A stretch of 64,000 bases of DNA from Norana najaformis (Eukaryota; Annelida; Clitellata; Crassiclitellata; Hormogastridae). This document shows positions 22,295 to 63,678 of this stretch, piece after piece. Below the pieces are notes generated by a model. The model had not been told where the DNA came from. It saw only the letters and a program-made list of their open reading frames with translations, and made no database searches. The stretch spans positions 5,088,455-5,152,454 of the forward strand of contig OZ029921.1 of assembly GCA_964023275.1 (NCBI GenBank). The letters are read 5' to 3'. A program made the position numbers and the translations under genes. Each line of letters starts with the position of its first letter. The first letter of the stretch is position 1.

Positions 22295-22512
22295 TTATGC
22301 TGTGCTCTCGCTCCCGTAGTTGACATGGCCCTCTTCAGCAGGGGTAGTGCCCGAATCTGCAGATGAAGAGGCGTATGAAGGGTTGTTGAAACCGGATGTG
22401 ATTCTGCGCTTGCGAGAGAGGTACATGAGGCCGATGAAGACGAGGATCATGCCGAGAGCTACGCAGCCGAAGACGATGCCGACTATTGCACTCGTGGACA
22501 GCGATGAAGAAC
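22295..22512 (-). CDS. Terminal exon: transmembrane helix and endocytic tail
   Basis: Phase 1 start after a GTGTATAG acceptor. A short Ser-rich lead is followed by a hydrophobic helix ([24 protein letters not shown]), a basic stop-transfer SRKRR, and a tail of about 35 residues ending [12 protein letters not shown] and a TAG/TGA-type stop at 22295-22297. The tail contains FNNPSY at 22373-22390, which fits the FxNPxY clathrin-sorting signal first known from the LDL receptor (family knowledge). This makes a single-pass type I endocytic receptor likely. Confidence 0.87.

Positions 22513-63678: not shown

Follow-up and report, generated by a model that had tools for sequence, protein, structure and literature searches.

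Does the minus strand of this 64,000-nucleotide stretch of the Norana najaformis genome (hereafter the window) encode one giant receptor in which two arrays of C-type lectin domains (CTLDs) surround a block of F5/8C and WSC domains, or does its gene model run together two or more genes? We report that the gene locus is real, intact-looking and larger than first described. Specifically, its domain content and order, open frame and motifs were computed, and from these we infer a single transcript, binding and uptake; we put the probability that the gene encodes one type I, multivalent lectin uptake receptor at about 0.6.

Sequence, gene model and searches

The window covers positions 5,088,455-5,152,454 of contig OZ029921.1 in assembly GCA_964023275.1 (608 Mb, 17 contigs), and about 30 kb of upstream flank beyond the window edge was examined as well. 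All positions are given in window numbering, with numbers above 64,000 lying in this flank. The gene model was rebuilt with a spliced-exon finder, the codon weights of which were taken from hand-picked exons of the same gene, and doubtful exon boundaries were judged by eye using splice signals and domain continuity. For domain annotation the window protein was cut into 17 pieces and scanned against Pfam with the curated cut-offs. Paralogues were searched for in the same genome and the resulting lists hold the best-scoring candidates. Comparisons with published proteins refer to those parts of the cited papers that were available.

An open frame of 53 exons

The minus-strand gene model has 47 exons in the window, which join into a continuous reading frame for 2,339 residues without internal stop, and when the upstream flank is included the full model has 53 exons and 2,588 residues, also in one open frame. 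The preliminary description had likewise given an unbroken frame, together with lower counts (45 exons and about 2,283 residues) that are superseded here for the window; the stop codon at 22295-22297 is where it had been placed. Run unguided in the window, the finder returned a single chain of 53 exons. Among the 47 final window exons 39 are finder exons, and seven of the remaining eight agree with a finder exon at one end. A hand-set boundary is present in 8 of the 47, where frame continuity is partly by construction, and 14 finder exons were dropped or altered by hand. Those discarded entirely are 63330-63373, 63198-63243, 58663-58728, 51731-51794, 44412-44523, 34301-34352 and 28949-29118; the one at 44412-44523 has a near copy at 38834-38943, and these similar, exon-like intronic pieces probably represent an interspersed repeat that gene finders can mistake for coding sequence. 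Part of a reverse-transcriptase frame was considered as the last exon of the N-terminal exons and rejected, since F5/8C exons go on past it in frame.

On the gene strand the finder scored 738, whereas the opposite strand reached 65.5 and five block shuffles 25.8-62.1; this margin is inflated, since these exons themselves supplied the codon weights and repeats had been left unmasked in the shuffles. All 46 window introns have AG acceptors and 43 have GT donors, while the other three use GC (at 52149, 44820 and 39859); three GC donors among the 46 introns of one gene are above the usual expectation. The median length of the window introns is 675 nt. Poor splice sites are found at the join from 63982 to 63667, at the donor at 30161 and at the acceptor at 67472. 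Moreover, profiles built from the protein's own domains gave 40 exon-level matches (E ≤ 0.01), all of which overlap minus-strand model exons; as the profiles derive from the same protein, these matches check the placement of the exons, not their existence.

The gene extends past the window, and the flank provides the 5' end with two complete N-terminal CTLDs, both above the Pfam cut-off. The N-terminal array, which had been described as four CTLDs, consequently numbers five. Two signal-peptide-like first exons were detected upstream; the better one (68331-68286, reading MIQVLYFVVVCFLPF) joins in phase 1 to the exon starting at 67472, the acceptor of which is weak (-1.5), and CTLD1 starts at residue 20, straight after the predicted signal peptide. 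An alternative start ATG is present at 67497 with a poorer hydrophobic stretch, and the piece from this start to the end of CTLD1 gave a Lectin_C match, a UL45 match below the cut-off and nothing else in Pfam. CTLD2 is completed by the first exon of the window (exon 63982-64065, which runs past the window edge) and by exon 63529-63667, so that its C-terminal part occupies 63529-64000; with the flank it passes the Pfam cut-off. The join from 63982 to 63667 within CTLD2 (donor -6.9, acceptor -5.4) is tentatively placed. Position 63678, where the gene had been described to begin, is a plausible acceptor but clashes in phase with the preceding flank exon; the alternative acceptor at 63667 is in frame with that exon and scores poorly.

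Domain order along the protein

Within the window, Pfam Lectin_C was matched by 10 of the 11 CTLD pieces, F5_F8_type_C by all three F5/8C pieces and WSC by both WSC pieces, the eleventh CTLD piece (50 residues at the window edge) having no Pfam match. With the flank included, 12 of 12 CTLDs, three of three F5/8C domains and two of two WSC domains are above the cut-off. The full order is signal peptide, five CTLDs, three F5/8C domains, two WSC domains, seven CTLDs, a Thr/Pro linker, a transmembrane helix and a tail with FNNPSY, and the domains matched in the order that had been given for them.

After CTLD2, the first array continues on the minus strand with CTLD3 (59994-62816; exons 62669-62816, 61950-62032, 60793-60906 and 59994-60095; Lectin_C E 1.7e-16), CTLD4 (56860-59226; exons 59068-59226, 58067-58140 and 57382-57523, followed by a linker exon at 56860-56898; E 7.9e-14) and CTLD5 (54504-56488; exons 56315-56488, 55308-55427 and 54504-54668; E 2.5e-23), the last carrying EPN and WND. 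The inner block on the same strand begins with F5/8C domain 1 (51347-53387; exons 53262-53387, 52150-52355, which has a GC donor, and 51347-51488; F5_F8_type_C E 1.6e-17), domain 2 (47007-49094; exons 48910-49094, 47707-47853 and 47007-47151 with phases 1-0, 0-0 and 0-1; E 1.7e-20) and domain 3 (44821-46464; exons 46274-46464, 45701-45844 and 44821-44959, the latter with a GC donor; phases as in domain 2; E 2.1e-27). WSC domain 1 (43352-44272; exons 44142-44272 and 43352-43517; WSC E 1.6e-19) and WSC domain 2 (41471-42663; exons 42539-42663 and 41471-41636; E 2.1e-16), each with an inner phase-0 intron, complete it. The two WSC domains are 48% identical and have the phases 1-0 and 0-1 in common. 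The shared phases of F5/8C domains 2 and 3 and of the WSC pair, and the identity of the latter, are as tandem duplication would give; an inner phase-0 intron is also present in the WSC domain of kremen 2 (PMC3927609).

The second array, again on the minus strand, comprises CTLD6 (39291-40954; EPN/WND; exons 40775-40954, 39860-40008, which has a GC donor, and 39291-39413; Lectin_C E 1.5e-23), CTLD7 (36596-38480; exons 38365-38480, 37645-37784 and 36596-36798; E 2.1e-17), CTLD8, which has an insertion (33939-36074; exons 35947-36074, 35219-35271 and 34500-34745, and a linker exon at 33939-33989; E 1.2e-19), CTLD9 (30612-33390; EPN/WTD; exons 33191-33390, 32268-32341, 31551-31651 and 30612-30872; E 9.2e-24), CTLD10 (27970-30315; EPN/WND; exons 30161-30315, with a weak donor of -2.9, and 27970-28069; E 4.4e-18), CTLD11 (26179-27638; exons 27397-27638 and 26179-26353; E 4.3e-18) and CTLD12 (24015-25592; EPN/WND; exons 25329-25592 and 24015-24188; E 4e-20). 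In translation, the exon at 23382-23564 is a Thr/Ser/Pro-rich linker, and the last exon (22295-22512, both on the minus strand) encodes a hydrophobic helix, RKRR and the cytoplasmic tail with FNNPSY; in Pfam the tail piece gave Amnionless only, below threshold. The open frame, the Pfam order and the motifs accordingly support the claim that one giant receptor combines a transmembrane helix and an endocytic tail with two CTLD arrays, between which the F5/8C and WSC domains are placed.

One gene or several

Three exons, 39291-39413, 36596-36798 and 30612-30872, each span a boundary between consecutive CTLDs, encoding the last part of one domain and the first part of the following one; they tie together CTLDs 6, 7 and 8, and CTLDs 9 and 10. 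In the gene model no such exon bridges either of the two joins that define the architecture, i.e. from CTLD5 to F5/8C domain 1 (54504-53387) and from WSC domain 2 to CTLD6 (41471-40954). The model might then have joined two or three neighbouring genes on the same strand, e.g. a secreted protein with five CTLDs, with or without the F5/8C and WSC domains, and a transmembrane receptor with seven, which we regard as unlikely. Both defining joins are in phase 1, as two adjacent modular genes would show too, and AATAAA/ATTAAA is present in both gaps (two and three, respectively), yet also in 27 of the 46 introns. Gene-prediction errors are moreover a known cause of false domain architectures (PMC3927609), and the closest published parallel, DEC205-FUSE of Fugu (see below), is itself labelled as fusion-like (PMC514892). 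If the exon is read through at the two joins, the frame closes after 7 or 33 codons, so that a secreted ending would be possible there.

Against separate genes, the gaps at the two joins, 1,116 nt (54504-53387) and 516 nt (41471-40954), fall within the ordinary or short range of intron lengths, the second being below the intron median. The finder gave one chain at gene-start penalties of -15, -20, -30 and -80; at lenient penalties the locus was split, into three genes at -10 and 13 at -5, with both defining joins inside a piece, and the joins thus persist at the penalties examined. Nor is there a strong internal first or last exon in these gaps: transmembrane-like last exons number 0 and 0, and signal-peptide-like first exons 1 (of 13 residues) and 0, a weak test since absence is the norm among the 46 introns, with a signal-peptide candidate lacking in 36 and a transmembrane candidate in 41. 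Judging from the sequence, we consider it probable, with good confidence, that all modules are present in a single transcript.

A different relation between the two arrays would result if some transcripts skipped the F5/8C-WSC block as a cassette, so that a plain form with 12 CTLDs would occur beside the mosaic one. The block (53387-41471) is bordered by phase-1 introns and its skipping preserves the frame; such phase compatibility is, however, expected of any block of this kind and there is no direct sign of skipping, which makes this the least probable of the alternatives considered and, in our view, a very improbable one.

The locus is bordered on each side by different genes. Upstream on the same strand, CHD1 is the next gene (70.6-93.2 kb in extended window numbering), with chromo and SNF2 domains and CHD1 as the best solved match; the finder ended it at 70845, a frame continuing to about 70.64 kb is also visible, and AATAAA is present near its end at 70539, 70245 and 70205.

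Relation to known receptors

As in the mannose receptor family (MRC1, MRC2/Endo180, PLA2R1 and LY75/DEC-205), the predicted protein has tandem CTLDs, one C-terminal transmembrane helix and a short tail with an endocytic motif. The family (CTLD group VI) is characterised by at least eight CTLDs, and 12 are present here in arrays of five and seven; it is further characterised by type I membrane proteins with an endocytic-motif tail, to which the predicted signal peptide, the helix, RKRR and FNNPSY correspond by sequence. When the CTLD profile was compared with solved sequences (E 1e-10, best 60 of 252), the yolk-sac IgY receptor, LY75 and PLA2R were at the top, followed by MRC1 and MRC2. In family members a cysteine-rich and an FN2 domain precede the CTLDs (PMC12321717), and neither was found by Pfam before CTLD1, a result that depends on the predicted first exon. 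The family array is uninterrupted, whereas three F5/8C and two WSC domains stand between CTLD5 and CTLD6 here. With these two differences, the protein is expected to act like a mannose receptor, yet we do not class it as one.

The closest published layout is that of Fugu DEC205-FUSE, with five CTLDs, LCCL and FA58C, and 10 CTLDs (seven in assembly v.3); this protein is a prediction unsupported by cDNA or EST and was labelled as resembling a fusion of DEC205 with a second CTLD gene (Zelensky and Gready 2004, PMC514892). Compared by published layout, not by sequence, the two are alike in having two CTLD arrays around a discoidin-bearing block, with 5 and 10 (7) CTLDs in Fugu and 5 and 7 here, and differ in that the Fugu block has LCCL and one FA58C while three F5/8C and two WSC domains are present here, and in size (about 2,000 residues for DEC205-FUSE versus 2,588). 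No match to LCCL was obtained at E 0.1 in the 19 protein pieces scanned with Pfam. The agreement of the 5-and-7 arrays may be due to chance. Alternatively, five CTLDs, a discoidin block, seven CTLDs, a helix and an endocytic tail could represent an old class common to this animal and fish, in which WSC and LCCL were swapped and which was lost in mammals; we find this rather doubtful. Given this likeness, one can test whether receptors with two CTLD arrays form an ancient class or reflect a gene-model or assembly error.

Parts of the combination are known from other animals. Mannose-receptor-like genes of the Manila clam (RpMR) have 1-14 CLECT domains, with FA58C and transmembrane regions within the set, and differ in that WSC is absent from the domains listed for the clam set in the available text (PMC12321717). 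There are bivalve C-type lectins with WSC (PMC10140915), the sea-urchin SRCR superfamily includes F5/8C and WSC (PMC10855680), teleost F-type lectins (FTLD proteins) carry CTLD and FA58C (PMC5712786), and WSC is named in the legend of a sponge receptor figure (PMC8242945). In the bivalve WSC lectins, sea-urchin SRCR and teleost FTLD proteins the parts mix likewise, and the available parts of these papers show no two-array CTLD layout. Among the open-access texts searched, none was found on CTLD, F5/8C and WSC in one protein; an orthologue may well exist, unnamed, among predicted animal proteins. The preliminary description knew of no described receptor of this kind, and this stands for the exact F5/8C-WSC block, for which none was found, but not for F5/8C between two CTLD arrays, which was described for DEC205-FUSE in 2004 (PMC514892). 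Within the searchable literature the novelty is the placement of three F5/8C domains and a WSC pair between CTLD arrays; the overall plan has a published precedent that is itself a prediction.

Binding modules and proposed uptake

In a motif scan of all CTLDs, EPN was present in five of the 12 (CTLDs 5, 6, 9, 10 and 12), together with WND in four and WTD in CTLD9; it was absent from the other seven, and QPD was found in none. CTLD5 and CTLD6, which flank the inner block, both have EPN and WND. Hence the majority of the CTLDs look unfit for classical sugar binding, and while the earlier suggestion of a multivalent recognition receptor remains plausible, the classical sugar motif covers just these five. 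In a tree built from the 10 complete CTLDs of the window none of the seven forks was supported, and the tree thus favours neither an origin of the two arrays by duplication nor an insertion of the block into a single array. Among solved sequences, the best 60 of 67 matches of the F5/8C profile include factor VIII, factor V, neuropilins and lactadherin, and four of the five matches of the WSC profile are Kremen 1.

The F5/8C domains are thus related to those of neuropilin and lactadherin, and F5/8C domains of this type also act in adhesion. The protein could then be an adhesion or matrix receptor, its lectin and discoidin modules holding matrix or adjacent cells instead of serving uptake; since the tail is of the FxNPxY type and the CTLDs are closest to the endocytic mannose receptor family, we judge this quite unlikely.

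For the uptake receptor that we prefer, CTLDs 5, 6, 9, 10 and 12 would bind mannose-type sugars with calcium, EPN usually being tied to mannose specificity in CTLDs (PMC514892). The three F5/8C domains, nearest to factor V/VIII C domains, would contribute contacts with lipid surfaces or glycans, and further contacts, to carbohydrate or protein, would come from the WSC pair. Particles or glycoproteins bound in this way would be internalised through the FNNPSY tail by clathrin adaptors that read NPXY (AP-2, DAB2 and ARH). FNNPSY fits the (Fx)NPXY consensus, and the predicted tail function rests on this one six-letter motif; signals of the NPXY type are recognised by AP-2, DAB2, Numb and ARH, and the motif used by MRC1 is FENTLY (PMC5297682). 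If the transcript is confirmed, one chain would carry three kinds of surface-binding module and an uptake signal, and would offer a natural test of the division of labour between sugar-binding and other CTLDs in multi-CTLD receptors.

Related sequences, intronic elements and the downstream neighbour

Among the matches listed for the same genome, no second copy of the architecture was seen with the WSC, F5/8C 2-3 or linker/tail queries. Specifically, the WSC query gave at least 42 matches, four of them the gene's own exons and the other 38 at 31-59% identity; the F5/8C 2-3 query gave at least 14, six own and eight weak, and the nearest weak F5/8C match lies about 0.9 Mb from any listed WSC match. 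The linker/tail query found its own two exons only among the matches listed. Many of the at least 92 WSC matches in a broader listing cluster at 9.3-10.8 Mb and 59.4-59.7 Mb of contig C1 and represent WSC gene families. At C1:59.38-59.58 Mb, a 200 kb stretch has 10 WSC exons, and neither CTLD nor F5/8C was matched there at E 0.001 with profiles made from this protein, which could miss diverged domains.

Rfam gave no matches in the window. A reverse-transcriptase frame (49181-50851, minus strand; 556 open codons, RVT_1 E 4.2e-32) lies in the gene's own orientation within the 2.25 kb intron between F5/8C domains 1 and 2. A 12-bp minisatellite with 26 copies (26460-26768) is present in an intron close to CTLD exons, and an intronic CCA-type array (39686-39835) lets the preceding exon read open into poly-Trp. 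Finally, on the opposite (plus) strand downstream, a rough model at 3081-17377 has vWA and Cache-like pieces, with Pfam matches below the cut-off, and a C-terminal transmembrane helix; this neighbour may be alpha2delta/CACHD1-like.
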